Below are positions 324-63,608 of a stretch of 64,000 nucleotides of DNA, piece after piece. This stretch comes from Flavobacterium sp. TR2 (GTDB taxonomy: Bacteria > Bacteroidota > Bacteroidia > Flavobacteriales > Flavobacteriaceae). The notes beneath the pieces were generated by a model that saw nothing but the letters and a program-made list of their open reading frames with translations, had not been told where the DNA came from and did no database searches. The translations under genes were made by a program, and so were the position numbers. Every line of letters starts with the position of its first letter. Positions within the stretch are counted from its first letter, which is position 1. The stretch spans positions 124,001-188,000 of the forward strand of contig NZ_CP104307.1 of assembly GCF_025252405.1 (NCBI RefSeq), given 5' to 3'.

Positions 324-1025
324 ATGTATCTTAACAACCCCAACATAAAACTTCCTGACGATCCCGATACTATTGTTTGGAAGTATCTAGACCTATCTAA
401 ATTTCTTGATTTATTGCTTTCGAAAAAACTTTTCATGTCACGTTCAGACAAGTTTGAAGACCAATACGAAGGAACTTTTAGCGAACCTACGTATGAAGAG
501 ATTAAAAAACTTGCCGTAGACAATCCTGAGTTTTTAAATTATTACAAAACGCATCGCGAAAAAGTAGCGATCAGCAGCTGGCACATCAACGAATATGAAT
601 CTTTTGCCATGTGGCAGATTTTTACCAAAAATAATGAAGGTCTAGCTATTCAATCCACAATTAAAAGACTGCAAAAAGCTGTAAAACCCGAAAACAATTT
701 TGACCAGTACATTGGCGAAGTAAAATACATTGACTACAAAAAAGAATACATTCCGTTTGATGATTTATTCTTTCCATTTTTATTTAAAAGAAAAAGTTTC
801 CAATACGAAAGAGAAGTCCGAATCTTGAGTGACACTTCAAAAAGCGATATCAAATTAAACGACGGGTTAAAAATCAATGTAGACATCAATCAATTGATCG
901 AGAAGATATACATCCATCCGAAATCTGAAAACTGGTACAAAAAACTGGTAATTGAGTTGGTAGAACGCCTAGGTTTTGGTTTCGAAATTGAAAAATCGGA
1001 TCTGGAAAGTGACATATTGATTTGA
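324..1025 (+). CDS. DUF2971 domain protein
   Basis: A 233-residue cytoplasmic protein without signal peptide or membrane segment. The N-terminal stretch WKYLDLSKFLDLLLSKKL then FMSRSDKFEDQYEG matches the conserved start of DUF2971, and an SSWHINEYESFAMWQIF block followed by a YEREVRIL block completes the family signature. The biochemical role of DUF2971 is not established. Members are often accessory and scattered in bacterial genomes. The gene stands alone between the ABC exporter terminator and a convergent lipoprotein gene, and its 3' flank is repeat-rich, which fits an accessory position. Family assignment is from recall of conserved blocks; no function is claimed. Confidence 0.75.
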   Translation: MYLNNPNIKLPDDPDTIVWKYLDLSKFLDLLLSKKLFMSRSDKFEDQYEGTFSEPTYEEIKKLAVDNPEFLNYYKTHREKVAISSWHINEYESFAMWQIFTKNNEGLAIQSTIKRLQKAVKPENNFDQYIGEVKYIDYKKEYIPFDDLFFPFLFKRKSFQYEREVRILSDTSKSDIKLNDGLKINVDINQLIEKIYIHPKSENWYKKLVIELVERLGFGFEIEKSDLESDILI

Positions 1026-1437
1026 AGGTGCTAAGGTTCTGAGGAGCTAAGTTTTTTTTAACCACAGATTTAATTTTTCAGTTACTGATGATGTTCCGCA
1101 GGAACATTTCATTGGTAGAAAAATTAAATAGTTACGGTTATTTTTCGTTCCGTTGGAACGTTTGATTTTGATACATTTTTTTTACAATGCAGCGCATTTA
1201 AACGTTCCGGAACGTAAATTGGCTGGCATGATTTTTTTCTACCGACTAGACATTTCTACGGAATGACGAGTCGGCTTATAAAAATGAAAAACGCTTTTTC
1301 ATTAATGAAAACCATTTAAAAAAGAGAGGCTGTTTCTACTTAATGAAACAGCCTCTCTTTTTATAAAAATCTTTCTCCTCAAAATCTGTGGCGAAAAAAC
1401 TTAGAATCTTAGCCTCCGAGAACCTTAACAACTTAAA
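1025..1437. repeat. Gap holding a long inverted repeat with nested small palindromes
   Basis: This convergent gap has no gene. Its two edges are imperfect inverted copies of each other over about 50 bp. The left arm (1025-1071) reads AAGGTGCTAAGGTTCTGAG, then GAGCTAAG, a T-run and CCACAGATTT. The right arm (1381-1434), read on the minus strand, gives AAGTTGTTAAGGTTCTCGG, then AGGCTAAG, a T-run and GCCACAGATTTT. Between the arms lie three small palindromes: ATGTTCCGCAGGAACAT (1091-1107), CGTTCCGTTGGAACG (1146-1160) and ACGTTCCGGAACGT (1202-1215). A strong terminator follows at 1318-1362. Confidence 0.75.
1318..1362. terminator. Bidirectional terminator between DUF2971 gene and lipoprotein gene
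   Basis: AAAGAGAGGCTGTTTC (1321-1336) pairs perfectly with GAAACAGCCTCTCTTT (1345-1360) around an 8-nt loop. There are A-runs on the left and T-runs on the right, so it can stop transcripts from both convergent genes. Confidence 0.9.
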
Positions 1438-1440
1438 CTC

Positions 1441-2160
1441 TTAGATCGGTTTATAGTTCTTCACTTCCCATTTTTTTGAAGCCAAATCTATATAATTATA
1501 GTGCAACACATCATTTTTATCAAATTGCCCATTTTGGTTGGTATCTTCGATAGTTCTAAAATACAAACGATTTTTAGACTCGATTAAGCTCCAATCTACC
1601 AGCTCTTGAAGGTCTGCAGAAACTTTGGTGAAATTTTCTCCGCTAATGTCACTTAAATATAAAGTTTTGATATCGCTAGTGTCTATTTTACCATCTTTAT
1701 TGGTATCTGAATCCGTCAGCGTGTAAACCATCACATTATTATGCGTTCTGTCGGCAACTGTTTTCAAATAAGTAGCCGTTAAAATCAAAACTGGCTTATC
1801 TGACAAAGGTCGGATAGAATCTGAATCAACTTTTTGGAATTTTAAATTCTGAAGATATCCTGTAATTTCATATTCGCCTAAATTAGAAATCGTAAAACTC
1901 ACATCATTTACGCTTGAAGAACCAAAACGCGCTTTAGAACCCCTTTCATAAACTCTTAAGTCTCCAACTGGATGAATTAAATAATCAGTTCCTTCCAACT
2001 GAATCGGAAGATCTGCAATTTCGATTTGAGTCGAATCGGTTTTAGCAACACTTACTTTGTTTGAAGCGCCGTAACTTACTTTTGGTTTCTGAACTTCTTC
2101 TCGGCAGCTGATTACTGTTCCGACAAGTATTAGGGCGATATATTTAAAATACTTTTTCAT
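1441..2160 (-). CDS. Putative lipoprotein with two EF-hand-like calcium loops
   Basis: A 239-residue protein of unknown function. The N-terminus MKKYFKYIALILVGTVISC is a lipoprotein signal with the lipidated Cys at about residue 19, so the mature protein should sit on the periplasmic or outer face of a membrane. Two calcium-loop-like segments are visible: DTNKDGKIDTSD at about 152-163 and DTNQNGQFDKND at about 206-217. Each has Asp/Asn at alternating positions, a central Gly and a final acidic residue, as in EF-hand or dockerin loops. The spacing (about 54 residues) is longer than in a classical EF-hand pair. No enzyme motif is visible. It is convergent with the DUF2971 gene and downstream of, but 89 bp from, the TonB receptor gene on the same strand. 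Confidence 0.75.
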   Translation of the reverse strand: MKKYFKYIALILVGTVISCREEVQKPKVSYGASNKVSVAKTDSTQIEIADLPIQLEGTDYLIHPVGDLRVYERGSKARFGSSSVNDVSFTISNLGEYEITGYLQNLKFQKVDSDSIRPLSDKPVLILTATYLKTVADRTHNNVMVYTLTDSDTNKDGKIDTSDIKTLYLSDISGENFTKVSADLQELVDWSLIESKNRLYFRTIEDTNQNGQFDKNDVLHYNYIDLASKKWEVKNYKPI

Positions 2161-2249
2161 CTACAATGATTATATACGATTATCAAATATACTATTTTTG
2201 ATTGTATTTTTTGTTTTTATTGAATTTTATAAAGAATCGCAAAACTACA

Positions 2250-4715
2250 TTACAGCCTCGCATTTATCTTAACGTTAAAAACCCTCGAAGTCATATAATT
2301 TGGTATCGCATATTGATTTTTTGAGTACACATCGCGAACCCACGTATTTGTAATGGCGTTTTGATTATTGAAAAGATTAAAAATTTCTAACCCAACAGCC
2401 AATTCTTTAAAGTTTTTCAGCCAGCCTTTTTTTGTATTTTGCGTACTAGCATCTACAAAAACTTTTGCAAAACCAATATCAGCTCTTCTGTAATCATTTA
2501 ATCTGTTTTGGTACAGATACGGATCAGTATATGCTGGCGCACCTCCTGGCAAACCTGTATTGTAAACCAAATTCAAATATACTTTTACGCTTGGAATGTT
2601 TGGCATATAATCTTGAAACAGCATCGCAAATTTCAAACGCTGATCTGTCGGACGAGCAATGTAGCCTTTGTTTTCGTAATTTTCTTCAGTTTTCATATAT
2701 CCAAAACTCACCCAAGATTCAGTTCCCGGCACAAATTCTCCGTTTAATCTAAAATCAAGGCCTTGCGCATAAGCTTTTGCATTGTTGTTGGCAACATAAC
2801 GAATTCGGACATTGTCAATCGAATATACATTTACATCAGAAAGCGATTTATAATAAAGCTCCGTCACCCATTTGAAAGGACGGTTCCACATTTTAAAATC
2901 ATAATCATTTCCTAAAACCACATGAATGGCTTCCTGAGCTTTTACATTCGGATTTACAACTCCGTCCAAATCACGTAATTCTCTGTAAAATGGAGGCTGA
3001 TGATACAATCCGCCCGAAATCCTGAAAACCATATCGCGATCCCAATCTGGTTTTATGGCAAATTGCGCACGTGGACTTACTACAAACTGTGTTTTTCCTT
3101 CTTCTAAAGCTCCCGCAACATTCCAGCCTTGAAAACGCGCTCCCAGATGATACCAAATCTGGCTCGAACCAATTTCCGACTGCTTGTTCCATTGCGCATA
3201 ACCCGAAAATCGATTTATAGTATTGAAATTAGTCGCTCGAATATTTTGATAAGGCAAAAGCGGTCCCGTGTAAGGCGTATAAGGCTGATTATTTTTTGGA
3301 AGAATAACCAAAGGCGGGTTTATAGAAAACCCTGCCGAATCAATCACTTCCCACTCCACTACTCGATCTCGAATTGATTCTCTTGTATATTTTAAGCCAA
3401 ACTCTAACTGGCTTTCTTTCCAGTCTTTAGTTCCTTTCAGTTCAATATTTGCGATTAAGGCATCCAAGTCATTTCGGGCATGGTTTAGTTGAGAACCAAT
3501 TCCGCGGGTAAAATCAATTGCAGAGGCATCTTCAGGATCTTCAGTATTTACATTTCCTAAACGATATTGTGCCAAAATATCAAAATGCTCTTTTTCTGTG
3601 GTATGAAATAAAGACCCAATTAATTTCAGCGTAAGTGTAGGCGATGCTTTATAAGTCGTTTTTAAAGCTCCAAAATAGGTATTGTATTGGTCTTTTTCCT
3701 GTCCGTCGTAATAAACCGCAAGCGCCATTGGCTGATCTGCCGTTCCAAAATTAGTTTGGCGCACCAAAGGTTCATACGAATATTTATTCTGAGAAATATT
3801 TCCTAAAAAGCTCATTTGCCATTTTTCAGAAATATCATAATTCACATTAGTCTGAATATCTCCAAAAGTCGGTTTGTAATTGGTCTCTGTATCTTGACTA
3901 TTGACCAAAAGGCTGTTGTTCCTATAACGGACTCCTGTTACGGCCGACCATTTTTTGTTTTTAGAAACCAAATCGACTGCCGCACTTCCGCCCAAAAAAC
4001 TGGCTTCAAATGCTGCTCCAAATTGAGTTGGCTTGCGATAGGTGATATCTAAAACAGAAGACAATTTATCTCCAAATTTAGCTTGAAATCCGCCCGCAGA
4101 AAATTCAACATTCTGAACCAAATCAGTATTGGTAAAACTAAGTCCTTCCTGCTGTCCAGAACGAATTAAAAATGGGCGATATACTTCTACTTCGTTTACA
4201 TAAACCAAGTTTTCATCATAATTCCCGCCGCGAACCATATATTGCGTGCTCAATTCGTTATTTGAATTAACCCCGGGAAGCGTTTTCAGAATATTTTCGA
4301 TTCCTGCGTTTGCACCTGGAATCTTTTTTATGGTTTCAGTGTCAACAGATGTAATTCCTTGAACTCGTTTTCTATTTCCAGAAGAAACAAAAACTTCTCC
4401 CATTTGCTCTTCAGAATTACTCATGATCGGATTAAAAACATACACTTCATTTGTTTTCAAACTAACGGTCAAACTCATCATTTTTAACGAAACGTGAGTA
4501 AAAATTAGAGAGACTTTTTTGTTTGACGGAATTACAATTTCATAAAAGCCATTAGAGTCAGACTGCACAAAAGCATCTTGTGAAGAAACATTTACTCCCA
4601 TAACAGGATGTTTTTCACTATCTAAAATCAATCCCTTAATACGGGCGTTTTGAGCTAATGCGATACAGCTGAAAAATAAAAAGAGAAAAGCGAATGTAAA
4701 CCTGTTATAACTCAA
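2250..4715 (-). CDS. TonB-dependent outer membrane receptor with carboxypeptidase-regulatory-like domain
   Basis: 821 residues. A Sec signal ends near AQNARI, followed by a carboxypeptidase-regulatory-like beta-sandwich (about 25-105, IKGLILDSEKHPVMGVNVSS) and a plug domain (about 120-225). In the plug, IPGANAGIENILKTLPGVNS and the YMVRGGNYDENLVYVNEVEV segment are typical. The remainder is an aromatic-rich 22-strand beta-barrel ending in VFNVKINARL. It imports an unknown ligand across the outer membrane using TonB energy. No SusD partner is adjacent, so it is not a Sus-type glycan importer. It starts 12 bp after the LytM peptidase gene on the same strand, so the two are probably co-transcribed. 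This receptor/peptidase adjacency is commonly seen in Flavobacteriia by my recollection. Confidence 0.9.
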   Translation of the reverse strand: MSYNRFTFAFLFLFFSCIALAQNARIKGLILDSEKHPVMGVNVSSQDAFVQSDSNGFYEIVIPSNKKVSLIFTHVSLKMMSLTVSLKTNEVYVFNPIMSNSEEQMGEVFVSSGNRKRVQGITSVDTETIKKIPGANAGIENILKTLPGVNSNNELSTQYMVRGGNYDENLVYVNEVEVYRPFLIRSGQQEGLSFTNTDLVQNVEFSAGGFQAKFGDKLSSVLDITYRKPTQFGAAFEASFLGGSAAVDLVSKNKKWSAVTGVRYRNNSLLVNSQDTETNYKPTFGDIQTNVNYDISEKWQMSFLGNISQNKYSYEPLVRQTNFGTADQPMALAVYYDGQEKDQYNTYFGALKTTYKASPTLTLKLIGSLFHTTEKEHFDILAQYRLGNVNTEDPEDASAIDFTRGIGSQLNHARNDLDALIANIELKGTKDWKESQLEFGLKYTRESIRDRVVEWEVIDSAGFSINPPLVILPKNNQPYTPYTGPLLPYQNIRATNFNTINRFSGYAQWNKQSEIGSSQIWYHLGARFQGWNVAGALEEGKTQFVVSPRAQFAIKPDWDRDMVFRISGGLYHQPPFYRELRDLDGVVNPNVKAQEAIHVVLGNDYDFKMWNRPFKWVTELYYKSLSDVNVYSIDNVRIRYVANNNAKAYAQGLDFRLNGEFVPGTESWVSFGYMKTEENYENKGYIARPTDQRLKFAMLFQDYMPNIPSVKVYLNLVYNTGLPGGAPAYTDPYLYQNRLNDYRRADIGFAKVFVDASTQNTKKGWLKNFKELAVGLEIFNLFNNQNAITNTWVRDVYSKNQYAIPNYMTSRVFNVKINARL

Positions 4716-4727
4716 AGATTTCGGGTT

Positions 4728-6419
4728 TTATTTTTGTTGACTTCTAAAAAAACGAGTTTCAAAGATAGTAGTATTTCCTACATTATCAACAACTTCAACT
4801 TTCAAAATATTTTCTCCTTCCGCCAAATACTGATCATCAAAAGTATGAGTAATTCTTCTGAGTTTATTTTCGTATTCAAACAAAACCCAACTTCCGTTCA
4901 AATAGCCGTTGTAAGATTTAATTCCAGACAAAGAATCGTTTATCGTAAAGTCAATTTTCTTTTGATCGCTAATCCATTTTCCTTCTATGGGTTTTGCAAT
5001 TTTAACCACTGGAGCAATCGTATCCAGAACCAATCCGTATGTGCCCAATATTTTGGCTTTTGCCGTAAAAACATCCCCTTTTCTAATGGTACCGTTGTAA
5101 CTTGTTCCTTTTCCAATATAAAGTTTATCTCGTAAAGCTTCTGGATAAGAGGAATCTTTTATGGTAATCGTAAAATTAGAATGCACAGGCACTGTATCAT
5201 CGTGAATATAAATTTTATTATTTCTCACATCAAAATTCATATTAAAATCATCATAAAAAGTTCCAGCTGGAAAGAAAACCGACATATTATCTTTCTCAAA
5301 ATTCGAATCTCTATTATATTTGATAAAATACTGCCCGTTAGCAGGCTCAGCTTCTACAAACGGTGTTGCAGCATCAAACTCAATTGGAACCGTAATCGAA
5401 TTCATATTCCCAAAATAGTCTGAAACCTCAATTTTATAATTCGAAGTTAGATTAGGCTCTGCTTTTACAATACCTCTAAGCGAATCTGTTTTGATAATAC
5501 TCAAAGCAAAAGGCGTTTTCATAAAAAGTTTCTGTACACGTTGTCCCGATTTTTTATATCTAGAATAATCGATCAAAGCATTTACATAACGCATTTCATC
5601 AAAAGAATACGTATTAAACTGATAATTATAATTCTGATTTCCGTTTAAAAAAGTCGAAACATTAAAGACCCCATTTTTGTTATGCGAAACATCATCGGTA
5701 TCAACGGCATTAATCCCGAAACCAATTTTTCCGTTTGCTTTAACTTTAGAAGCCAAGTAAGTTCCGTCTTTTTGAAGCGCCATATTAACCAGCAAAGGCT
5801 GTTTAGATTGATTTACCGTTGCATTATCCAAAGGATAAACATACAAACTAGACAAGGTAGGTTTTTTGGTATCTTTTATATTTTGGTCAAAGCCAAAGAA
5901 AATTGGGTTGATGACAAATTCAGTTTTTGTATCTCTTATTTCAAAATGAAGATGCGGCCCTTCTGATGAACCCGTATTTCCTGAAAGCCCAATTATATCG
6001 CCTTTTGCAACTGGAAGTTCTCCAGGTTTTGGAAACATTTCAATTTCATACGCCTTTTCTTTGTAATGCGTTTTTTTTACATAATCTAAAATTGCACCAG
6101 TTGGCGTCTGCAAATGCCCATAAACAGAAGTATAACCATTTGGATGCGTAATATAAATGCATTTTCCGTTTCCGAAAGTCGAAATTTTAATTCGCGAAAC
6201 ATACCCATCAGCAATTGCGTGTACGCTCAAACCTTCTCTCTGATTGGTTTTTAAATCAAAACCAGCATGAAAATGATTGGGTCTCAACTCCCCAAAATTA
6301 CCGGAAAGCTGCATTGGAATATCTAGTGGAGGACGAAAATAGTCTTTAGGATATTGCGTTTGCGCACAAATAAAATTACAAATCAGAAGGGCAAGGACAG
6401 AAAATCTCATAGGGAACAT
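4728..6419 (-). CDS. Secreted M23 (LytM-type) metallopeptidase
   Basis: 563 residues with an N-terminal signal peptide (MFPMRFSVLALLICNFICAQ). The Met at codon 4 (6410) is an equally good start. The M23 domain occupies about residues 30-175. The zinc ligands are visible as HFHAGFD (HxxxD, His51 and Asp55) and GPHLHFEIRD (HxH, His156 and His158). The family cleaves peptide cross-links in peptidoglycan or acts as a divisome/wall regulator. All key ligands are present, so it is predicted active. The long C-terminal part (about 190-563) is beta-rich and carries an Ig-like segment near DNVGNTTIFETRFFRS at the end. It is the first gene of a likely two-gene unit with the TonB receptor. Confidence 0.88.
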   Translation of the reverse strand: MFPMRFSVLALLICNFICAQTQYPKDYFRPPLDIPMQLSGNFGELRPNHFHAGFDLKTNQREGLSVHAIADGYVSRIKISTFGNGKCIYITHPNGYTSVYGHLQTPTGAILDYVKKTHYKEKAYEIEMFPKPGELPVAKGDIIGLSGNTGSSEGPHLHFEIRDTKTEFVINPIFFGFDQNIKDTKKPTLSSLYVYPLDNATVNQSKQPLLVNMALQKDGTYLASKVKANGKIGFGINAVDTDDVSHNKNGVFNVSTFLNGNQNYNYQFNTYSFDEMRYVNALIDYSRYKKSGQRVQKLFMKTPFALSIIKTDSLRGIVKAEPNLTSNYKIEVSDYFGNMNSITVPIEFDAATPFVEAEPANGQYFIKYNRDSNFEKDNMSVFFPAGTFYDDFNMNFDVRNNKIYIHDDTVPVHSNFTITIKDSSYPEALRDKLYIGKGTSYNGTIRKGDVFTAKAKILGTYGLVLDTIAPVVKIAKPIEGKWISDQKKIDFTINDSLSGIKSYNGYLNGSWVLFEYENKLRRITHTFDDQYLAEGENILKVEVVDNVGNTTIFETRFFRSQQK

Positions 6420-6532
6420 TTTTGCTAAGATAAAAAATTAACAGGGGAAAACCGAAGATAATCGCCATAAAAACACAATAACTTGAATTTCATTTATTTG
6501 CTTATTTTTAATGTAAAAAAATCGATAAAAAA

Positions 6533-6562
6533 TTGCATTAATAAAAAGGAATACTAACTTTG
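6533..6562 (+). promoter_or_regulatory. Bacteroidota-type promoter for the coiled-coil/zapA operon
   Basis: TTG at 6533-6535 and TAACTTTG at 6555-6562 are separated by exactly 19 bp. This matches the Bacteroidota sigma-factor consensus (-33 TTG, -7 TAnnTTTG). The start codon follows 28 bp later. Confidence 0.8.
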
Positions 6563-6590
6563 TATGATTAAGTAATGAATAGGATGTATA

Positions 6591-6881
6591 ATGAGTGTAA
6601 TTGCAGAAATAATTGATACTCTTGAATATAAAGTTGAAAAGCTTTTTGAGAAATCAAAAGCCTTTGAACAAAACAATCAAGTATTACGATTAGAACTAGC
6701 CAAAGCTGCGCAAATTATCCAGAAACAATCTGAGGAAATGGAAGCTTTGAAGAAGCAAAATGAAACACTTAAGATAGCCAATTCGTTGCTCGGCAGCGAC
6801 AATAACAAGAGAGAGACAAAGCTTAAAATAAATTCATTAATTCGCGAAATTGATTACTGCATAGCACAACTATCAGATTAA
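6591..6881 (+). CDS. Small coiled-coil protein upstream of zapA
   Basis: 96 residues, almost entirely predicted alpha-helix with heptad hydrophobic spacing (LEYKVEKLFEKSKAFEQNNQ onward), rich in Glu, Lys and Gln and lacking Cys, Trp or a signal peptide. It starts 28 bp after a strong consensus promoter and ends 4 bp before zapA, so the two are translationally close and certainly co-transcribed. Size, coiled-coil character and partner gene resemble ZapB, the coiled-coil divisome factor that binds ZapA in enterobacteria. No sequence homology is claimed; the analogy rests on context only. Confidence 0.8.
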   Translation: MSVIAEIIDTLEYKVEKLFEKSKAFEQNNQVLRLELAKAAQIIQKQSEEMEALKKQNETLKIANSLLGSDNNKRETKLKINSLIREIDYCIAQLSD

Positions 6882-6885
6882 TAAT

Positions 6886-13391: not shown

Positions 13392-13952
13392 ATGAAGAAA
13401 ATACTTTTAGCAGCTGTTATGTTCATTGCAACATCAGCGGCAGTAAACGCACAATTTGTACAAATCGGGGTTAAAGCAGGGGTTAATTTTGCAAACCAAA
13501 CTGGAGGTTCTGATTTTGATGGAATTTCTGTTGACAAAGAAGGAATTACAAGTTACCATGCAGGGCTTGTAGCTGAACTTAAATTATTAGAAAAATTCTC
13601 AATTCAACCAGAGCTTTTATATACTACACAAGGAGCAACTTATAAAAATGCTGTTTCAGAATTTAAAAACGAAATGGGTTATATCGCTATTCCTGTAATG
13701 GCAAAAATCTATATGACAAAATCTCTAAGTTTAGAACTTGGTCCACAGGCGTCATTCCTTGTTAGCAAGAAAAAAGAATTTGATGTGGCAGATCCAAACA
13801 CATTTGACTTCTCTCTTAATGCAGGTTTAGGATTAAAAGTTGTTGGAGGTCTTTTTGTTCAAGCTCGTTACGGAATAGGTTTGACAGAGATTTCAAAAGA
13901 AGCTGATTTTAAAAACTCTGTATTCCAACTTTCAGCTGGATATATGTTCTAA
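13392..13952 (+). CDS. PorT-like small outer membrane beta-barrel protein (paralog 3)
   Basis: 186 residues with signal peptide MKKILLAAVMFIATSAAVNA, then FVQIGVKAGVNFANQTGG. It repeats the family strand signatures (FSIQPELLYTTQGATY, LSLELGPQASFLVSKKK, LFVQARYGIGLTEIS) and ends in FQLSAGYMF. It is divergent from paralog 2 across a 305-bp AT-rich promoter region (13087-13391) in which I see no further gene. It has its own terminator at 13974-14008. Confidence 0.85.
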   Translation: MKKILLAAVMFIATSAAVNAQFVQIGVKAGVNFANQTGGSDFDGISVDKEGITSYHAGLVAELKLLEKFSIQPELLYTTQGATYKNAVSEFKNEMGYIAIPVMAKIYMTKSLSLELGPQASFLVSKKKEFDVADPNTFDFSLNAGLGLKVVGGLFVQARYGIGLTEISKEADFKNSVFQLSAGYMF

Positions 13953-17143: not shown

Positions 17144-17342
17144 CAAGGTTCAAAGTCGCAAAGGTTCAGAGGTTCAAAGTCAAAATCCCTAACGCAGCTC
17201 TTGACTTTGCTTAAACTGACAAAAATATATTTTAAAAAAATCCGTTTACTCTTAAAAGAATAAACGGATTTTTTATTTCAATCTTTGACAAAAGTTTCAG
17301 CTAAAAAACCTTTGTCCCTTTGAAGCTTTGAACCTTTGCAGC
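17144..17342. repeat. Heptad-type inverted repeat flanking a terminator
   Basis: Left arm 17144-17180 is a tandem of GGTTCAAAG-like words (CAAGGTTCAAAG, CAAAGGTTCAGAGG, TTCAAAG). The right arm 17308-17340, read on the minus strand, is CAAAGGTTCAAAGCTTCAAAG and on to ACAAAGGTT (words split here). The arms enclose the terminator at 17234-17278. No gene is present. This is the same design as the elements at 1025-1434 and 19691-19766 but with a different word. Confidence 0.7.
17234..17278. terminator. Bidirectional terminator between DUF5686 and CDF genes
   Basis: An A-run followed by ATCCGTTTA pairs with TAAACGGAT and a T-run around a short A-rich loop. It is symmetrical, so it serves both convergent genes. 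Confidence 0.9.
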
Positions 17343-18218
17343 TTAAGAATAATCATCTGGTTCAACATGAATCAATACATGTCCTAATTCGGGATTTTTT
17401 TCTCTGAGTGTATCTTTCAGTTTATGTGCCAAATCATGCCCTTCTTTAACCGAAATTTTTGCTGAAACGATAGCATGCAAATCAACATGGTATTTCATTC
17501 CAGCTTTACGGATAAAACATTTTTCAGTTCCTAAAATACCAGGAACTGTAAGGGCTACAACGCGAATTTCTTCTACTAAGTCTTCATTTAGATTTTCATC
17601 CATGATTTCGCCAAGCGCAGGTCTGAAAATTTTGTAACTATTATAGAGAATAAAAAACGCTGCAAAAAGCGCCGCCCAATCATCAGCAGACTCATAGCCT
17701 TTTCCCATAATCAAGGCAATCGAAATTCCGATAAATGCAGCCACAGAAGTTATAGCATCACTTCTATGATGCCACGCGTCAGCTGCTAGTGAAGTGCTAT
17801 TAGTCTGTTTGCTTCTTTTCATTACCAAACGAAAAGAATATTCTTTCCAAATAATAATGGCTCCTAAAACATATAATGTCCAAGATTTAGGCAAATCGTG
17901 CGAAGTTCCAATATTGGCAATACTTTCGTAACCAATAATTGTGGCAGAAGTGATTAAAAATCCGACAACCAAAAAAGTAATCAGAGGTTCTGCCCGACCA
18001 TGCCCATAAGGATGATTTTCATCGGCTGGTTTGTTTGAATATTTGATTCCAAACAGCACCAAAAAAGATGCGAATATATCTGTTGTCGATTCAATTGCAT
18101 CTGCAATTAAGGCATAAGAATTGCCAAAAAAACCTGCGAGACCTTTTATAAGGGCCAAGCAGGTGTTTCCGGCTATACTAAAAATAGTAGCTTTTATAGC
18201 TTTTTGTTCGTTTGTCAT
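17343..18218 (-). CDS. Cation diffusion facilitator (CDF) family transporter
   Basis: 291 residues with about six membrane helices in the first 200 and a soluble C-terminal domain (about 205-291) of ferredoxin-like type ending HVLIHVEPDDYS. The metal-site motif in helix 2 is YALIADAIESTTDIFAS and in helix 5 ADAWHHRSDAITS (HxxxD). The family exports Zn, Fe, Co, Ni or Mn in exchange for protons across the inner membrane. The HxxxD of helix 5 is usual in zinc-preferring members, but the exact ion is not safe to call. It is downstream of murA on the same strand, 148 bp away across an inverted repeat. Confidence 0.92.
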   Translation of the reverse strand: MTNEQKAIKATIFSIAGNTCLALIKGLAGFFGNSYALIADAIESTTDIFASFLVLFGIKYSNKPADENHPYGHGRAEPLITFLVVGFLITSATIIGYESIANIGTSHDLPKSWTLYVLGAIIIWKEYSFRLVMKRSKQTNSTSLAADAWHHRSDAITSVAAFIGISIALIMGKGYESADDWAALFAAFFILYNSYKIFRPALGEIMDENLNEDLVEEIRVVALTVPGILGTEKCFIRKAGMKYHVDLHAIVSAKISVKEGHDLAHKLKDTLREKNPELGHVLIHVEPDDYS

Positions 18219-18241: not shown

Positions 18242-18356
18242 GCCACGAATTACACAAATTACACGAAGACTAACATTCTGTTTTATTTCACTAATATTTA
18301 ATCATGTAATTGAATTTCAAAAATTAAAAATTAGTGCAATTTGTGTAATTCGTGGC
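18242..18356. repeat. GCCACGAATT-type inverted repeat between murA and CDF gene
   Basis: GCCACGAATTACACAAATT at 18242-18260 is matched perfectly (19 of 19) by its reverse complement at 18338-18356. The pairing extends imperfectly inward (ACAC against GTGC and AATTTTTAATTTTTGAA on the right). The 77-bp centre is AT-rich. It would form a long stem in the intercistronic RNA between murA and the transporter gene. Confidence 0.85.
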
Positions 18357-19690: not shown

Positions 19691-19766
19691 TAAGGTTCTA
19701 AGGTTCTGAGATTCTAAGGTTCTGAGCTAAAATCTTAGCATCTTAGAAACTTAGCATCTTAGCCTC
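19691..19766. repeat. Heptad inverted repeat in front of murA
   Basis: A tandem of imperfect seven-base words on the left (TTAAGGTTCTAAGGTTCTGAG, quoted up to 20: TAAGGTTCTAAGGTTCTGAG; then ATTCTAAGGTTCTGAGC) folds back on a matching array on the right (ATCTTAGCATCTTAG, AAACTTAGCATCTTAGCC). It lies between the DUF4290 stop and the murA start, so any hairpin would be in the RNA directly upstream of murA. Confidence 0.75.
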
Positions 19767-19767
19767 T

Positions 19768-20788: not shown

Positions 20789-20887
20789 TCGTAATTAAAA
20801 ATAAACGCAAATATACGGTTTTTGAATTTAGATTTCTGAGTTTAGATTTTAGATTTTTTGACTCTAAAAATACAAGGTGTTTTTTTT

Positions 20888-21001
20888 CCACGAATTACAC
20901 TTATTAGCGCAAATTATTCAATCTTAAATTCAATTTCACCAATTTTAATTAACTTGGCAAATCAAAAAATAAAAATTAGCGAAAATTCGTGAAATTCGTG
21001 G
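20888..21001. repeat. GCCACGAATT-type inverted repeat between divergent genes
   Basis: CCACGAATTACAC (20888-20900) plus TTATTAGCGCAAATT pairs imperfectly with the segment 20973-21001, whose minus-strand reading starts CCACGAATTTCACGAATTTT and continues CGCTAATTT. This copy lies between the divergent DUF493 and esterase genes. It makes the upstream in-frame Met of the esterase an unlikely start, because that codon sits inside the right arm. Confidence 0.75.
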
Positions 21002-21051
21002 CAAAAAACTTTGTGACTTCACGACTTTTTGCGAGATTAAAACCATTTCAA

Positions 21052-22550: not shown

Positions 22551-22916
22551 TAAAAAAGAAATAGCTACAGATATTAGGCTAAAGCCATAAATCTCAAAAC
22601 AGTTAAACCCATTGGTTAAAACCAACGGCAACTCAAATGAAAACTGCTCCAGCGGAGCAAAATATTTATAGAAAAATAATTTCACCCCATTCAAAAGCTC
22701 CAGCGGAGCGACATATAAATCACGCAAAATATGTCGCTCCGCTGGAGCTTTTGATTTATTGTATTCAATATTTCTATAAATATGTCGTCCCTCACGGGAC
22801 TTTTCACTTTGCTAAAACAAAACCATTTTCCTTCCTCAATCAGCAACTTTTGTTTAGTAAAATATCAAATCTTTCGTTTCTGATAAATATTCTTTTTAAT
22901 TATAAATAAGTTTAGG
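22551..22916. repeat. GCTCC-NNN-GGAGC palindrome array
   Basis: This 366-bp gap has no gene. GCTCCAGCGGAGC occurs at 22646-22658 and 22697-22709, and GCTCCGCTGGAGC, its reverse complement, at 22736-22748. The last two units and their flanks form a perfect 24-bp stem (22693-22716 against 22729-22752) with a 12-nt loop. A related CGTCCCTCACGGGAC lies near 22788. The text CATATTTATAG-like between units recurs (AATATTTATAG, ACATATAAAT). Similar units occur at 43533 and 43583. Confidence 0.85.
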
Positions 22917-56706: not shown

Positions 56707-56805
56707 TTATTGTATTTGTGATAGCCCATATTGGGTCTTTTTTGAAATCAAATTTTTTAATTAATTTTAAAGGAAATTAAAATCCTTTACCAAATATAAT
56801 ATACA

Positions 56806-57333: not shown

Positions 57334-57335
57334 AT

Positions 57336-57896
57336 ATGAAGCTCTACATCAAAAATATGGTGTGCAGCCGATGCAAAATGGTAGTGAAGTCTGAGTTCGA
57401 AAAGCTCGGACTTCAACCTACTGCTGTAGAATTGGGAGAAGTGGAACTAAACGAAGAAATCAGCGATAAGCAGAAAGAGATTCTATTAGAAAATCTTCAA
57501 GCTCTAGGTTTTGATTTAATTGATGACAAAAAAACAAAAACGGTTGAAAAAATAAAAAACCTGATTGTCGATTTGGTCCATCATAAAAACAACGATCTTA
57601 AAATCAACTTGTCCGATTATTTAGCCGAAAATCTGAATCAGGACTATAATTCGCTAAGCAATTTATTTTCTGAAATAGAAAACACTACTATCGAAAAGTA
57701 TTTCATTAGCCAAAAAATCGAAAAAGTAAAAGAATTATTGATTTATAATGAACTTTCGTTAAGCGAAATTGCCGATATGCTCAACTACAGCAATGTGGCC
57801 CATTTAAGCAATCAATTCAAGAAAATCACAGGCTTTACTCCTACGTCTTTCAAACAGTCAAAAGATAATAAACGTATTCAGATTGAGAATTTGTAG
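57336..57896 (+). CDS. HMA-like/AraC fusion regulator
   Basis: 186 residues from the ATG at 57336 (MKLYIKNMVCSRCKMVVKSE); a frame from 57303 overlaps the DUF3347 gene. An N-terminal HMA-type ferredoxin-like domain (about 1-70) holds CSRC (Cys10, Cys13). A C-terminal AraC-type helix-turn-helix region (about 130-180) has LSLSEIADMLNYSNVAHLSN then QFKKITGFTPTSFKQS. The build suggests a copper-sensing regulator in which a metallochaperone-like domain replaces the usual cupin. Its promoter target could be the island itself. Not in the classical CueR/CopY families. Confidence 0.8.
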   Translation: MKLYIKNMVCSRCKMVVKSEFEKLGLQPTAVELGEVELNEEISDKQKEILLENLQALGFDLIDDKKTKTVEKIKNLIVDLVHHKNNDLKINLSDYLAENLNQDYNSLSNLFSEIENTTIEKYFISQKIEKVKELLIYNELSLSEIADMLNYSNVAHLSNQFKKITGFTPTSFKQSKDNKRIQIENL

Positions 57897-57907
57897 TTTT
57901 TTTTATT

Positions 57908-58108
57908 TAACCGCAAAGGCACTAAGGTTTACACAAAGTTCGCAAAGTTTTTTAGCCACAGACTATAAGGATTAAAAGGATTTTAAAATCTGTGTTAATC
58001 TTTTTAATCTGTGGCTAACTTTTTATGCGCAAAGCTTTGAGAACTCTCTACTCCTTAAACAAACAAAACTTAGTGCTCTTTGCGCAATTCTTTGCGCCCT
58101 TTGCGTTA
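57908..58108. repeat. Nested double inverted repeat before copA
   Basis: The gap 57897-58211 (315 bp) has no gene. The outer arms are CGCAAAGG-type: the left (57908-57952) reads TAACCGCAAAGGCACTAAGG, and the right (58069-58108) on the minus strand TTAACGCAAAGGGCGCAAAG. The inner arms are TTAGCCACAGA (57952-57962) and TCTGTGGCTAA (58008-58018), with AAGGATTAAAAGG-like extension. Two element types are thus nested inside each other. Confidence 0.75.
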
Positions 58109-58211
58109 AAAAACAGCATTTAGTAAATCTTACAAATCATTCCCAAAATTCTACAAACCAAACTCAGAGATACTTCGGAAATTTGCATTGTAATACTTAA
58201 AAACCAATACA

Positions 58212-60752
58212 ATGACTCATCAATATATAATTTCAGGAATGTCGTGTGACGGCTGCCGCAAAAAAGTAGAAAAAACTCTGAATGAAGTCGAAGGCGTTCA
58301 TGCAGCAGTTACGCTGAATCCGCCAACGGCTACCATTACCATGGAAAAACATATTCCGACAGAAAAATTCCAAGAAGTTTTAGCTGCCGCGGGAAATTAT
58401 ACTATTGAAATGGATTCTCCTAAAAAACATGGAGAAGCTGCCGTTAAATCTTGCTGCTCAAGCCACAAAAAAGAGCATCATGATCATAATCATCATAAAA
58501 CAGAAGCTAAAAAAGTACACCAGCACAGTGCAAATGGCGTTTATTACTGCCCCATGCATTGTGAAGGAGATAAAACATACGATAAACCAGGGGACTGCCC
58601 AGTCTGCGGAATGGATTTAGTGCCGCAAGTTGCCATAACTGCAACACAATTTACTTGTCCGATGCATCCGGAAATTGTTTCAAACGAGCCAGGCGATTGC
58701 CCGATTTGCGGAATGGATCTAGTCCCAATGCAGGCTTCTGAAAGCGAAGAGAACAAAACCTATTTGGATTTATTGAAGAAAATGAAAATTGCGATTTTGT
58801 TTACGCTTCCAATTTTCATCATTTCAATGTCAGAAATGATTCCAAATAATCCGCTGTACAATATCATGTCAATAGAAAAATGGAATTGGGTTCAGCTTTT
58901 ATTTTCGATTCCCGTTTTGTTTTATGCGGGTTGGATGTTTTTCGTTCGCGCCTACAAATCCATTATCACATGGAACTTGAATATGTTTACATTAATAGGA
59001 ATTGGAACCAGCGTCGCTTTCCTGTTTAGTATTGTCGGAATGTTTTTTCCGGATATATTTCCATCCGAATTCAAATCGCATCACGGAACCATTCATTTGT
59101 ATTTTGAAGCTGCAACTGTCATAATCACTTTAGTTTTGTTAGGGCAATTACTCGAAGCCAAAGCACACGGGCAAACGAATGGAGCCATAAAAGAATTATT
59201 AAAATTAGCTCCAACAGAAGCGACTTTGGTTGAAAACGGAAATGATAGAGTGATTTCGATCCATAACATTAAAAAAGGCGATTTGCTTCGCGTAAAACCA
59301 GGAGAAAAAATTCCGGTTGACGGAAAAATAACAACTGGCGAAAGCAGCATCGACGAATCTATGATTACGGGAGAACCAATTCCGGTAGACAAAAAAACGG
59401 GCGACCCCGTAATTTCCGGAACTATAAACGGAACAAAATCGTTTGTCATGATTGCCGAAAAAGTAGGTTCAGAAACCATGCTTTCGCAGATTATCCAGAT
59501 GGTGAATGATGCCAGCAGATCTCGCGCTCCAATTCAGAAATTAGCCGATCGCGTTTCTAAATATTTTGTGCCAACTGTAGTTATCATTTCAATTGTAACC
59601 TTTTTTGTCTGGGCAAAATTTGGTCCAGAACCTGCTTACGTTTACGGATTAATCAATGCGATTGCCGTTTTAATTATCGCCTGCCCTTGTGCTCTCGGAC
59701 TGGCAACTCCAATGTCGGTTATGGTAGGCGTTGGAAAAGGTGCCCAAAACGGAATCTTGATTAAAAATGCTGAAGCACTCGAAAACATGAACAAAATCGA
59801 TGTTTTGATTACTGATAAAACAGGAACTATTACTGAAGGAAAACCGTCTGTAGAAAAAATATATGCAGTTAATAATGACGAAGATTTTCTGCTTCAAAAC
59901 ATTGCTTCTCTAAATCAGCATAGCGAACATCCTTTGGCGCTGGCCGTAGTCAATTTCGCGAAAGCAAAAAACAGCTCTTTCAAAGAAGTTCAAGGTTTTG
60001 AAACTATTGCGGGAAAAGGCGTTTTAGGAACTATCCAAAATATAAAAGTTGCTTTAGGAAATAAAAAACTAATGGAAGAAATTGGCGCTCCTGTTTCTAA
60101 TGATTTAGAACAAAAAGTAACTGCCGAACAGAATTTAGGAAAAACTATTTCGTACATCGCAATAGAAAATAGCGTTTTAGGTTTTGTAGCCATTACCGAC
60201 GCTATCAAAGAAAATAGTGCAAAAGCCATTAAAGAATTAATTGCCCAAGGCGTTGAGGTTATCATGATGACAGGCGACAATCATAATACTGCAAAAGCAG
60301 TTGCAGATCATTTGCACTTGAGCTCTTTTAAAGCCGATTGTCTTCCAGAAGATAAGTTAAAAGAAATTGAACGACTGCAAGCACAAGGAAAAATTGTAGC
60401 AATGGCTGGAGACGGAATCAACGACGCACCTGCTTTAGCTCAATCCAATATTGGTATCGCAATGGGAACAGGAACTGACGTTGCGATTGAAAGCGCTAAA
60501 ATCACTTTGGTAAAAGGCGATCTTAACGGAATTGTAAAAGCAAAAAACCTTAGCCATGCGGTAATGTCAAACATCAAACAGAATTTATTCTTTGCCTTTA
60601 TCTACAATACGTTGGGTGTGCCAATTGCTGCGGGAATCTTATATCCATTTTTAGGAATTTTGCTTTCACCGATGCTGGCAGCAGTGGCCATGAGTTTGAG
60701 TTCCGTTTCAGTAATCGTCAATGCTTTGCGATTGAGAAATCTAAAATTGTAA
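58212..60752 (+). CDS. copA: Copper-exporting P1B-type ATPase
   Basis: 846 residues. An N-terminal HMA domain carries GMSCDGC (Cys12, Cys15). A His-rich linker (about 82-108, [18 protein letters not shown]) precedes two zinc-ribbon-like heavy-metal-binding domains, [12 protein letters not shown] to CPVCGMDL (113-134) and TCPMHPEI to CPICGMDL (149-168). Eight membrane helices follow with the actuator TGE(388), the CPC motif [11 protein letters not shown] at 491-493, phosphorylation DKTGT at 535-539 and SEHPLA at 571. It exports Cu(I) from the cytosol. The second of two neighbouring metal-binding ribbons is a common addition in Bacteroidota. All motifs are intact. Confidence 0.96.
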
Positions 60753-60770
60753 ATTGGGAGTAATTATTTC

Positions 60771-60899
60771 AACACATAGAGACATAACTTTGCATTGCGC
60801 ATAAAGGCGTTTCACTTGCATCAATACACATAGCTATGTGTGGAAACTAGTTTCTTTATTCTCTTTTTTTAGACAAAAAAATCTATGTCTCTATGTGTT
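60771..60899. repeat. AACACATAGAGACAT inverted repeat between copA and oxidase gene
   Basis: AACACATAGAGACATA (60771-60786) pairs perfectly with TATGTCTCTATGTGTT (60884-60899). In the centre there is a second perfect palindrome, ACACATAGCTATGTGT (60826-60841). The gap 60753-60938 has no gene. Confidence 0.85.
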
Positions 60900-60938
60900 A
60901 AAATTCAATTATGTTCAATTGATTTAAAATTATAATCC

Positions 60939-63182
60939 ATGATTAAAATTAAATATATACTGATTCTTTCTTTAATTGCTTTTCAGCTGAAGGCTCAAAA
61001 AGTCGTGCGTTACGATTTGCACGTTCGCGATACGATTGTCAATTTTTCGGGCAAAGAAAAACGAGCGATTGCGGTAAACGGACAAATTCCGATGCCGACT
61101 CTGACTTTTACCGAAGGCGATATTGCGGAAATTTATGTGCACAACGAATTAAAAAAAGAAACGACTTCGATGCACTGGCACGGACTGTTTCTGCCAAATA
61201 AAGAAGACGGAGTTCCGTACCTGACGCAAATGCCTATTGAACCTGGAACGACTCATAAATATACTTTTCCAATTATTCAGAACGGTACATATTGGTATCA
61301 TAGCCATTCGGGGTTACAAGAACAAATTGGTCTGTACGGACTTTTTATCATCAATAAGAAAAAAGACGATCCGACAATTCGAAAAGGAATTGATGATTTA
61401 CCGACAATTCCCGTTATTTTGAGCGAATGGTCAGATTTGAAACCAGAGAATATTCAGCGAATGCTGCACAACGCCAACGATTGGTTTGCGATTAAAAAAG
61501 GAACGACTCAAAGTTATGCCGAAGCCATTAAGCAAGGACATTTTTCGACTAAAGTGACCAACGAATGGAAACGAATGAACGCAATGGATGTCAGCGATGT
61601 CTATTATGAAAAATTTTTAATCAACGGGAAAAACGAACAGCAGTTTTCAGATCTTAAACCAGGCTCAAAAGTAAGACTGCGAATTGCAAATGGAGGTGCT
61701 TCCAGTTATTTCTGGCTGACTTATGGCGGAGGAAAAATCACAGTCGTAGCCAGCGACGGAAATGACGTGGAACCTGTAGAAGTCGATCGTTTGATTATTG
61801 CCGTTTCTGAAACTTATGATGTTGTGGTTACAATTCCCGAGAACCATAAATCTTTTGCCTTTTTGGCTACGGCTGAAGACAGAACGGGATCTGCATCTTT
61901 GTTTTTAGGAAATGGAGAAAAACAGCCTGTTCATTATCTTTCGAAATTAAAATACTTTGAAGGCATGAAAATGATGAACGACATGATGAAAATGAATGGC
62001 GACATGAATGACATGGGCATGAATATGTCTTTGAATAAAATGGATATGAATGCCGTAATGTATCCAGAAATTTCAGGCGAAGACGAAAATGCAAAACCCG
62101 CAATGGACCATTCGAAGCATAATATGGAAGACATGAAAATGGAAAGCGACAGCACTGAAACTTCCGAAATTGTGACTTTAAACTACGGAATGCTGAAGTC
62201 TCCTTTTAAAACGAACCTTCCAAAAAATGCTCCGGTAAAAGAATTGCGTTTTACGCTTTCCGGAAACATGAATCGCTACGTTTGGAGTCTAGACAATAAA
62301 GTGGTTTCTGAAACCGATAAAATCTTAATTAAGAAAGGAGAAAACGTTCGCATCGTTTTGTACAACGGTTCCATGATGCGCCACCCCATGCACTTGCACG
62401 GTCATGATTTTAGAATTTTGAACGAACATGGCGATTATTCTCCTTTGAAAAATGTGATTGATATTATGCCAATGGAAACCGATACAATCGAATTTCAGGC
62501 AAATGCAGACGGCGACTGGTTTTTTCACTGCCATATTTTGTATCACATGATGGCTGGAATGGGACGAATTTTTACTTACGAAAATTCAGCTCCAAATCCG
62601 TTGATTCATCATCCTGAAATGGCCTTTAAAATGCTGAAAATGGATGACAGAATGTTTCATTTTAGGGCTGAAAATGATTTTGCAACCAACGGAAACGATG
62701 GTGAAGCCATGTTAAGCAACACACGTTGGAGCATCGGAACAGAATGGAGATTGGGTTATAACGACAAACATGGTTATGAAACCGAAACGCATATTGGACG
62801 ATATATTGGAAAAAATCAATGGCTGATGCCTTTTATTGGTTTTGACTGGAGATACCGAAAAATGGGAATAGACGAACAGGAACAAAACCTTTGGGGACAG
62901 AAAAATACCAAAGACAATCGTTCGGTTTTTAGTGCAGGTCTCGAATATACGTTGCCGATGCTCATAAAAGCCCAAGTTGAGGTTTATACAGATGGAAATG
63001 TTCGCTTGCAATTTGAACGAAAAGACATTCCGCTTTCTCAGCGCCTTCGAATGAATCTAATGTGGAACACCGATAAAGAATATATGGCTGGTTTAAAATA
63101 TATCGTTGGTCGAAACTTCGGAATCACAACGCATTATGACAGCGATATGGGAATTGGTTTTGGAGTTAATTTGAATTATTAA
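60939..63182 (+). CDS. Multicopper oxidase fused to a C-terminal CopB-like beta-barrel
   Basis: 747 residues. Signal peptide MIKIKYILILSLIAFQLKAQ. Copper sites: SMHWHGLF (79-82) and TYWYHSHSGLQ (119-125) in the first cupredoxin domain, and RHPMHLHGHDFR (482-488) and FFHCHILYHM (530-536) in the third, so T1 and trinuclear sites are complete. Between (about 343-400) lies a Met-rich stretch, for example MMNDMMKMNGDMNDMG, which binds cuprous ion in CueO/CopA. The last 180 residues (about 565-747) are a beta-barrel-like domain ending GFGVNLNY and resemble the CopB outer-membrane domain. The oxidase would detoxify Cu(I) at the outer membrane. Confidence 0.9.
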   Translation: MIKIKYILILSLIAFQLKAQKVVRYDLHVRDTIVNFSGKEKRAIAVNGQIPMPTLTFTEGDIAEIYVHNELKKETTSMHWHGLFLPNKEDGVPYLTQMPIEPGTTHKYTFPIIQNGTYWYHSHSGLQEQIGLYGLFIINKKKDDPTIRKGIDDLPTIPVILSEWSDLKPENIQRMLHNANDWFAIKKGTTQSYAEAIKQGHFSTKVTNEWKRMNAMDVSDVYYEKFLINGKNEQQFSDLKPGSKVRLRIANGGASSYFWLTYGGGKITVVASDGNDVEPVEVDRLIIAVSETYDVVVTIPENHKSFAFLATAEDRTGSASLFLGNGEKQPVHYLSKLKYFEGMKMMNDMMKMNGDMNDMGMNMSLNKMDMNAVMYPEISGEDENAKPAMDHSKHNMEDMKMESDSTETSEIVTLNYGMLKSPFKTNLPKNAPVKELRFTLSGNMNRYVWSLDNKVVSETDKILIKKGENVRIVLYNGSMMRHPMHLHGHDFRILNEHGDYSPLKNVIDIMPMETDTIEFQANADGDWFFHCHILYHMMAGMGRIFTYENSAPNPLIHHPEMAFKMLKMDDRMFHFRAENDFATNGNDGEAMLSNTRWSIGTEWRLGYNDKHGYETETHIGRYIGKNQWLMPFIGFDWRYRKMGIDEQEQNLWGQKNTKDNRSVFSAGLEYTLPMLIKAQVEVYTDGNVRLQFERKDIPLSQRLRMNLMWNTDKEYMAGLKYIVGRNFGITTHYDSDMGIGFGVNLNY

Positions 63183-63282
63183 ATTATAAAAACATTAACT
63201 TTTTTGTAAGAATCAACTCAATAGAATCTTTATATATTTGGATCACCAATTATAATCTCTAACACAAAAAACATTTAAAAAA

Positions 63283-63444
63283 ATGACAAAAGTAATCACC
63301 GTAGTAACAGTTGCTTTATTTTCAATCGGCGTAATGGCGCAAGAAACCAAACCGGCGACAAAAGATAAAGCTAAAAAAGAATCTTGCTGCAAAAAGACAT
63401 CGACAGATAAAAAAGACAAAAAATCTTGCTGCGTTAAAAAATAA
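63283..63444 (+). CDS. Short secreted Cys-rich peptide
   Basis: A 53-residue protein, ATG at 63283, TAA at 63442-63444. The signal peptide MTKVITVVTVALFSIGVMAQ is followed by a Lys-rich mature part with two SCC motifs, KKESCCKK and KKSCCVKK. It is likely a periplasmic copper-binding buffer. It is separated by 100 bp from the oxidase and followed by a terminator. A TATATTTG -7-like box at 63233-63240 may give it a separate promoter. Confidence 0.75.
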   Translation: MTKVITVVTVALFSIGVMAQETKPATKDKAKKESCCKKTSTDKKDKKSCCVKK

Positions 63445-63462
63445 ATGAAAATCTAATTTCAA

Positions 63463-63496
63463 GAAAAAGGCCTCAAATATTTTGAGGCCTTTCTTT
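63463..63496 (+). terminator. Terminator of the copper island
   Basis: AAAGGCCTCAAA and TTTGAGGCCTTT pair around a very small loop and are followed by T-rich sequence. Confidence 0.9.
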
Positions 63497-63508
63497 ATGC
63501 TTATTTTT

Positions 63509-63608
63509 GCCACGAATTTTGAGAATTAACGCGAATTAATTTGTGTAAATTGAATAACTCATTTAGTTTTCCAACTTTAAATTAGTGCCAATTCGGGAAA
63601 TTCGTGGC
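63509..63608. repeat. GCCACGAATT-type inverted repeat
   Basis: GCCACGAATT at 63509-63518 begins the left arm and AAATTCGTGGC at 63598-63608 ends the right arm. The arms continue inward imperfectly (AATTAACGCGAATTAATTT against AAATTAGTGCCAATTCGGG). This is the third copy of the GCCACGAATT family in the window. Confidence 0.75.

Follow-up and report, generated by a model that had tools for sequence, protein, structure and literature searches.

Dispersed intergenic elements with inward-facing tandem-word arms in Flavobacterium and related genomes

Nine intergenic gaps in a 64,000-nucleotide stretch of Flavobacterium sp. TR2 (the window: main-contig bases 124001-188000 of the 5.1-Mb source genome, also labelled "own") hold long imperfect inverted repeats that belong to a class of dispersed elements whose ends consist of tandem words. 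This class is real and abundant and comprises several families. Its members occur in many copies, their word arrays face inward, their two ends mostly come from one family and one element may be nested within another; elements of the family F4 are intergenic and attached to gene ends. No consistent RNA or terminator signature accompanies the elements, and at four gaps compared between species they have persisted for long while family or interior changed. The explanation that we favour, at about even confidence, is that they are DNA-level, non-autonomous dispersed elements that are now mostly fixed and are reshuffled by recombination. Genes were called with a custom script; G-numbers denote relative genomes and L-numbers sampled loci.

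Results

Word families and copy numbers

Each element consists of a string of 7-9-nt words on the left and the reverse-complement string on the right, with the words facing inward. The interior is arbitrary and may contain a terminator or a second such element; the whole is non-coding and about 45-400 bp in size. The initial annotation, made from the window, had proposed a single element family, and this has to be replaced by several word families with one common design, five of them (F1-F5) in the window and others outside it. The F1 word is CACGAATT, repeated in steps of 8 or 9 nt, the F2 word is CACAGATT, the F3 word is CAAAGNNN (a CAAAG octamer), the F4 word is CTAAGNNN (CTAAG) and the F5 word is ACATAG; GTTTCAAG is an example of the further families outside the window.

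The arm words are not unique to the nine gaps and recur genome-wide, well above reversed-word controls. Matches in the source genome number 154 for GCCACGAATT of F1 (4 for the reversed word), 100 for GCCACGAATT(N)CACGAATT of F1 (control 0), 121 for the F3 triple word CAAAGNNNCAAAGNNNCAAAG, i.e. (CAAAGNNN)x3 (control 2), and 39 for the F4 triple word CTAAGNNNCTAAGNNNCTAAG, i.e. (CTAAGNNN)x3 (control 0). In G053, the F4-richest among 61 genomes of the genus, the F4 triple word matches 262 times and its control once; the reversed-pattern controls of F4 are not small in some relatives (69 vs 21 in G054, 82 vs 22 in G042 and 95 vs 20 in G008). By pattern, and counting the source genome, F4 is present in 22 of these 61 genomes, F3 in 48 of 296 genomes of the phylum (including 15 of the 18 from the genus) and F1 in 10 of 149 genomes of the class. 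A scan for four F4 words returned at least 119 stretches, and 55 of 80 among the matches listed are titled Flavobacterium; the 15 scan loci read by eye include an F4-like opposed pair in a Gastranaerophilales and in a Planctomycetota genome, and several that are plain tandem repeats. Word arrays occupy 40 of 281 gaps in a source-genome sample and 76 of 274 gaps in stretches of G053 that were chosen around F4 matches.

The 23 F1 copies with perfect outer 10-mers are 46-228 bp long with GCCACG ends, and a loop word is common to 8 of them against 1.7 expected, two of the 8 overlapping in L312. A 141-bp F1 stretch, used as a single query, had no match in plasmid and phage collections. F1 head-to-tail arrays were seen at L311, L309 and L316 of the source genome, that at L311 having by eye some six units of roughly 75 bp. 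An 18-bp palindrome, TCCCGATAGCTATCGGGA, is found at 22 distinct sites (e.g. L037:6878, L026:8610, L148:7936 and L071:1482) and at several of them splits F1, F3 and F4 words, as if inserting into them; its flanks carry a 3-4-bp duplication at 9 of the 22 sites, 2 bp at 3 and none at 10.

A seven-base periodicity had also been suggested for some of the arms. Genome-wide it is evident, as 5-mers recur at lag 7 in 360 cases against 54 expected, which together with lag 14 (447 against 54) is the strongest signal; lags 9 (125 against 51), 8 (113 against 54), 16 and 18 are in excess as well. In the window itself, the arms repeat for the most part in steps of 8 and 9 nt, as judged by eye. Part of the lag-14 count is contributed by one long 14-nt tandem array (AACTTTCAAATTAG) in a gap of the source genome (L010, ~13497-13905).

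Polarity, nesting and position relative to genes

With array direction labels and word patterns that were defined by the analyst from examples, 70 of 85 arrays face inward in the source genome and 118 of 136 in G053. The diverging order was found in none of 61 two-sided gaps, a result that is independent of which arm is labelled left. The outer pair is of one family in 52 of these 61 gaps and of different families in 9, and a single recognisable side is present in 55 of the 116 gaps with arrays. Independent end arrays were rejected in view of the mostly same-family outer ends. Where two families are both two-sided, the arrangement is nested in four of four cases (one gap being counted in two species), with none interleaved or side by side, and more nesting is visible by eye in the F1 copies L308, L312 and L320.

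The position of F4 relative to genes was examined in the G053 sample, where no called open reading frame (ORF) contains any of the 71 F4 arrays. The outer arm end is at a median distance of 9 nt from the stop codon (n = 43), with 15 of the 43 at -4 to 5 nt; on the side of a start codon, the outer arm ends 12-20 nt before it in 14 of 28 cases and farther away in the remainder. The left end of F4 is mainly AAG or GAG and frequently shares the A's of the stop codon. Gaps with F4 in this genome (n = 48) are convergent in 15 cases, tandem in 32 and divergent in 1, against 44, 159 and 50, respectively, among all 253 gaps of the 20 G053 stretches, which were chosen around F4 matches. In a second pooled set, with loci selected for F4, the share of gaps that hold F4 is 34/98 for convergent, 73/394 for tandem and 7/108 for divergent gene pairs.

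Inverted repeats in the window

Pairing in the window was assessed from the best-stem score of each gap relative to 500 dinucleotide shuffles of that gap. The long imperfect inverted repeats first reported for the nine gaps were recovered at or near the same positions, and in all nine the arms pair better than the shuffled sequence, the score being reached by 0-4 of 500 shuffles: by none in six gaps, by 2 in gaps 207 and 20888 and by 4 in gap 17144. The best stem of gap 1025 sits in inner material rather than in the outer arms, which by themselves reach 44 where shuffles average 17.4. Across 281 gaps of a 464-kb genome sample, stem scores of at least 40 occur in 38 gaps (7.0 in shuffles) and of at least 50 in 21 gaps (1.1 in shuffles), counts that take in terminators and repetitive extragenic palindromes (REPs) too. 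The features of the window, with the number of shuffles that reach the best-stem score of the gap, are as follows.

220-271: F2-type inverted repeat in a tandem gap, arms 220-237 (AACACAGATTAAGGAAAT) and 254-271 (ATTTCTTTAATCTGTGTT); 2/500
1025-1426: F4 outer arms 1025-1051 (AAGGTGCTAAGGTTCTGAGGAGCTAAG) and 1400-1426; outer arms alone 0/500
1060-1392: F2 arms 1060-1071 (AACCACAGATTT) and 1382-1392, nested within the F4 arms
1094-1263: REP-like (R1) material within the F2 and F4 arms
1319-1362: terminator-like hairpin inside the nested arms
17145-17344: F3 element in a convergent gap, arms 17145-17179 and 17307-17344; 4/500
17235-17274: terminator-like hairpin between the F3 arms of this convergent gap
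18242-18356: F1 element in a tandem gap, arms GCCACGAATTACACAAATTACACGAA and ...GTGTAATTCGTGGC; 0/500
19692-19767: F4 element of 8-nt words, arms 19692-19726 and 19734-19767; 0/500
20881-21008: F1 element in a divergent gap; 2/500
57910-58115: F3 outer arms 57910-57951 and 58065-58115; 0/500
57952-57975 and 57995-58018: F2 element enclosed by the F3 arms of gap 57908
60766-60904: F5 element, arms AACACATAGAGACATA and CTATGTCTCTATGTGTT, with a second small hairpin inside; 0/500
63505-63612: F1 element beside a terminator-like hairpin in a convergent gap; 0/500

Gaps 1025 and 57908 thus hold nested arms, one family being enclosed by another. The first A of the left F4 arm at 1025 doubles as the last base of a TGA stop codon, and the F4 element at 19692-19767 sits between a DUF4290 gene and a murA-like gene (EPSP_synthase family). 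In the relatives G006 and G062, the F2 repeat at 220-271 is almost unaltered and the F5 element is retained, with both arms there reading ...GAAACATAG / CTATGTTTC...; the contents of gap 57908 differ in both genomes, and at gap 63509 G006 is without F1 and G062 has one F1 arm. The G062 orthologue of gap 1025 (the G006 gap was not paired) lacks the R1 material and has a hairpin that is by eye unrelated in sequence to the one at 1319-1362; the F4-around-F2 nesting is kept there although the terminator differs. An unpaired, single-sided TTTAGATTTTAGATTT-like array was seen by eye next to gene E in most of the orthologous divergent (EF) gaps viewed, the source-genome copy lying near 20826-20850 of the window.

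Persistence and change at orthologous gaps

At four gaps near the DUF5686, cation-efflux, murA-like, DUF4290 and esterase-like genes an element is mostly kept in up to 21 species. F4 words precede the murA-like gene in 21 of 21 species and F1 words follow it (gap 18242) in 18 of 21. Of 19 species compared at the convergent gap 17144, 10 have F3, 7 have F4, one has both and one has none; of 19 compared by word pattern at the divergent gap 20888, 7 have F1, 9 have F3, one has both and two have neither. By eye, these family states appear scattered on the gene tree; G006 and G062, the most closely related pair at 94.7% mean gene identity, have different families at the divergent gap. The change of family at the convergent gap is accompanied by a changed interior, terminator included (by eye); for this reason, conversion of F3 into F4 words in situ was rejected and replacement of the whole gap content is more likely. 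Word number differs between G006 and G062 by whole 8-nt units in both arms, and two source-genome F1 elements (L081 and L090) are missing from both relatives, but with altered flanks. In the gap before the murA-like gene, 20 relatives are identical to the source in 0.937 of the word cores (40 columns), 0.673 of the spacers (18 columns) and 0.80 of the rest; the mean difference at 4-fold sites is 0.30 for one flanking gene and 0.42 for the other.

Transcription and RNA pairing

That simple termination does not explain the elements, as the initial annotation had argued, is supported by the scarcity of T-runs. Five T's within 14 nt past the stem follow 2 of 27 F4, 1 of 26 F1, 1 of 8 F3 and 1 of 2 F2 flanks, and intrinsic terminators were rejected on these grounds. 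At the gap between the DUF4290 and murA-like genes, a T-run follows the element in 0 of 21 species. The motif TAnnTTTG, the promoter box of Bacteroidetes, is absent from the sense strand there in all 21 and present in 24 of 41 divergent gaps. Since both signals are lacking, the murA-like gene is probably transcribed through the F4 element.

Functional RNA stems should favour G-U over A-C variants on the sense strand. F4 cores in tandem gaps have G in 15 of 208 5'-arm words and C in 24 of 185 3'-arm words, a count that pools G053 loci with F4-scan loci, some of them not Flavobacterium; this is no G-U preference, and the difference (Fisher P 0.06) is in the wrong direction for RNA. A first F4 wobble count of 14 G-U to 54 A-C came mostly from one orthologous gap. 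There is likewise no G-U excess in F2 (9 G-U to 14 A-C), F3 (15 to 18) or unclassified tandem stems (202 to 224); F3 in convergent gaps, which have no defined sense, gives 67 vs 38 on the + strand. Tandem F1 stems lean to G-U (18 vs 6, P 0.02, orthologues included). Folding of sense against antisense strands gave no significant gain for 13 F4 (P 0.11, antisense better) or 16 F1 elements (P 0.11, sense better), and searching Rfam at the gathering score found only a tRNA in the window.

The spacers between words give a further view of how the arms are matched. Facing F4 spacers are identical at 0.453, against 0.476 in swapped arms (39 units, 20 G053 elements), and F3 spacers are common to both arms at 0.379 against 0.103 (14 elements, orthologues included). 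F1 arms share 9 non-consensus bases against 2.2 expected, a number reached in 0 of 2000 shuffles, with 4 of the 9 coming from two loci of other families. The shared deviations and subtype of F1 arms amount to arm co-variation, which is compatible with DNA as well as RNA. RNA hairpins under pairing selection were rejected as far as F4 shows, given its absence of G-U preference and its unmatched spacers. The idea of Rho-binding sites, with YC every 7-9 nt in one arm, was dropped because the arms are inverted repeats.

Search for a mobilising enzyme

In six of eight genomes searched, 27 Y1 transposase loci were found. None is flanked by F1-F6 arrays on both sides, and 2 of 27 have one F array within 900 bp. 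The other two genomes, G053 and G054, have no Y1 match, though both carry F4. As far as tested, Y1 transposases therefore do not explain the F elements, since the F4-richest genome has none, and mobilisation by Y1 or REP-associated tyrosine transposases (RAYTs) was rejected; such a transposase may formerly have been present in G053 and G054 and since lost. The four source-genome Y1 loci (L046, L047, L048 and L049) show no F1-F5 words by pattern, and R3 words at one. Differing palindromic repeats were seen by eye beside these four Y1 genes, and R3-type repeats also occur at 22646-22754 of the window.

A GIY-YIG nuclease was rejected as mobiliser of F1-F6 in the same way. Among 23 GIY-YIG loci, the script found an ORF in 12 and none in 11; an opposed F pair surrounds none of the 12 ORFs, and single F arrays lie near 6. 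At 5 of the 12 loci (L300, in the convergent gap of G065, and L296, L281, L278 and L294) a GIY-YIG ORF of 104-123 aa is flanked by other inverted repeats (R2), which correspond to TTTGTCATTTCGACGAAGGAGAAATC in whole or in part, and ORF-less copies of TTTGTCATTTCGACGAAGGAGAAATC-type repeats occur in gaps of other species (the EF gap of G087, G082 and G015). The TTTGTCATTTCGACGAAGGAGAAATC-type repeat may represent a palindromic element linked to a nuclease, with some copies that have lost their internal part.

Discussion

The initial annotation left open whether the repeats are a mobile or an RNA-structural element family that has spread through the genome. The genome-wide spread is supported. 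The RNA-structural alternative is not supported, as F4 shows no G-U preference, folds not significantly better in the sense strand and has unmatched facing spacers, with F1 stems alone leaning to G-U; mobility is supported only indirectly, by copy number, strict polarity, mostly same-family ends and nesting. Under the reading that we favour, the elements would have spread as DNA, inserting one inside another, by a system that would recognise the word arrays. They would survive where neither a gene nor a promoter is broken, which would place them between stop codons and translation starts. Most would be fixed by now, and recombination among alleles or dispersed copies may exchange interiors and whole gap contents.

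Several observations weigh against this reading. Element positions are stable and not scattered. The comparison of orthologous gaps, proposed at the outset as a check, showed persistence with change of family or interior at four gaps and gave no clean new insertion: none with target duplication between G006 and G062 in 12 alignments read (27 listed, 148 paired gaps), and none between the source and G006 or G062 in 10 alignments read (15 listed, 38 paired gaps). No transposase or other enzyme is tied to the F elements, Y1 and GIY-YIG having been examined and other transposases not searched for. Nearly half of the array-bearing gaps (55/116) are one-sided and 9 of the 61 two-sided gaps are of mixed family; the cores are conserved above 4-fold sites, which dead repeats would not need; and the F1 stems lean to G-U.

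The core conservation would fit arrays that are duplex binding sites of a putative sequence-specific host protein, acting in the nucleoid, at gene-end boundaries or as a transcription roadblock, with the pairing of the arms incidental. We regard this as unlikely. In its favour, cores exceed spacers at the murA-like gap (0.937 vs 0.673) beside flanking genes with 4-fold divergence of 0.30 and 0.42, facing F4 spacers are unmatched beyond swapped arms, inward polarity is strict and arrays persist for long at fixed gaps. Same-family outer ends (52/61) and the shared deviations and subtype of F1 arms indicate, however, that the arms are made or kept as pairs. Moreover, by pattern 39 of 61 genus genomes lack F4, 248 of 296 phylum genomes lack F3 and 139 of 149 class genomes lack F1, which would be odd for a core host function, and there is no protein candidate.

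Another alternative is that the palindromes generate themselves by mutation, growing and staying matched through template switching between arms during replication and slippage of words, with no moving element at all. Template switching is known to keep the arms of palindromes matched (quasipalindrome correction), and it would fit the shared F1 non-consensus bases (9 vs 2.2 expected), the F3 spacers common to both arms (0.379 vs 0.103), the whole 8-nt unit differences in both arms between G006 and G062 and the single architecture across many word families. We nevertheless hold it to be improbable, because the same few words at many sites of one genome and in other genera call for dispersal, and F4 spacers are unmatched between arms. 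RNA hairpins in 3' untranslated regions and operon spacers, serving as terminators, mRNA stabilisers or processing sites, would suit stems stronger than shuffles, sites after stop codons and between tandem genes but rarely in divergent gaps, and the G-U lean of F1, and are likewise improbable in view of the lack of G-U preference in F4, F2, F3 and unclassified stems, sense folding that is not significantly better, T-runs at 3 of 53 F4 and F1 flanks and a murA-like gap that has neither T-run nor promoter box in any of 21 species and is probably read through.

Miniature inverted-repeat transposable elements (MITEs) are non-coding and have terminal inverted repeats. The F elements resemble them in both respects, as well as in their many copies, arbitrary interior and nesting; unlike MITEs, they have shown no parent transposon and no target-site duplication in the gap pairs read and the Y1 and GIY-YIG loci, other transposases not having been searched for. 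REPs and bacterial interspersed mosaic elements (BIMEs) with their RAYT (Y1) transposases, and terminal inverted repeats (TIRs) with TIR-associated tyrosine transposases (TIRYTs), are described in PMC3733652 as short multi-copy intergenic palindromes, mainly in tandem and convergent gaps downstream of genes, and the F elements are alike in all these respects. However, REPs are 20-40 bp hairpins with GTAG/CGTC tags, whereas F elements are longer, with tandem-word arms and free interiors: F1 copies measure 46-228 bp with GCCACG ends and F4 ends mostly in AAG or GAG. Nor was a RAYT or TIRYT linkage found, with 0 of 27 Y1 loci flanked on both sides and no Y1 match in the F4-bearing G053 and G054.

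Heptamer direct repeats of TAACTGA occur in Beggiatoaceae, Cyanobacteria and Bacteroidetes; according to PMC4679880, they resemble F elements as intergenic short-word tandem arrays with a patchy distribution across phyla, some overlapping stop codons. They are direct repeats, and in the main genome most of them immediately precede a start codon. F elements differ in their opposed pairs, in the placement of F4 at gene ends and in their 7-9-nt words. Within Flavobacterium, RepRanger yielded 4,118 and 2,411 putative intergenic palindromes in F. ginsenosidimutans and F. urumqiense, with default limits of 11 nt for the loop and 32 nt for the palindrome, and the part of that account consulted (PMC12306157) does not mention long arms that enclose large interiors.

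One further suggestion, which we consider doubtful, is that the inward arrays are a genome-wide marking of gene ends, in which a putative DNA-binding protein would read CWAAG or CACGAATT cores that recur in phase at 8-9 bp. If so, one opposed pair would be kept per gap and its family could be exchanged without losing the site. Since arrays are present in 40 of 281 source-genome gaps and 76 of 274 G053 gaps, the elements bear on gene spacing, on the spacers of operons and on how terminators are annotated in this bacterial group. In F4 it is the phased word that is conserved rather than the pairing, and the elements nest like insertions and persist, yet swap family, a combination that helps to separate DNA-level from RNA-level accounts of intergenic palindromes.

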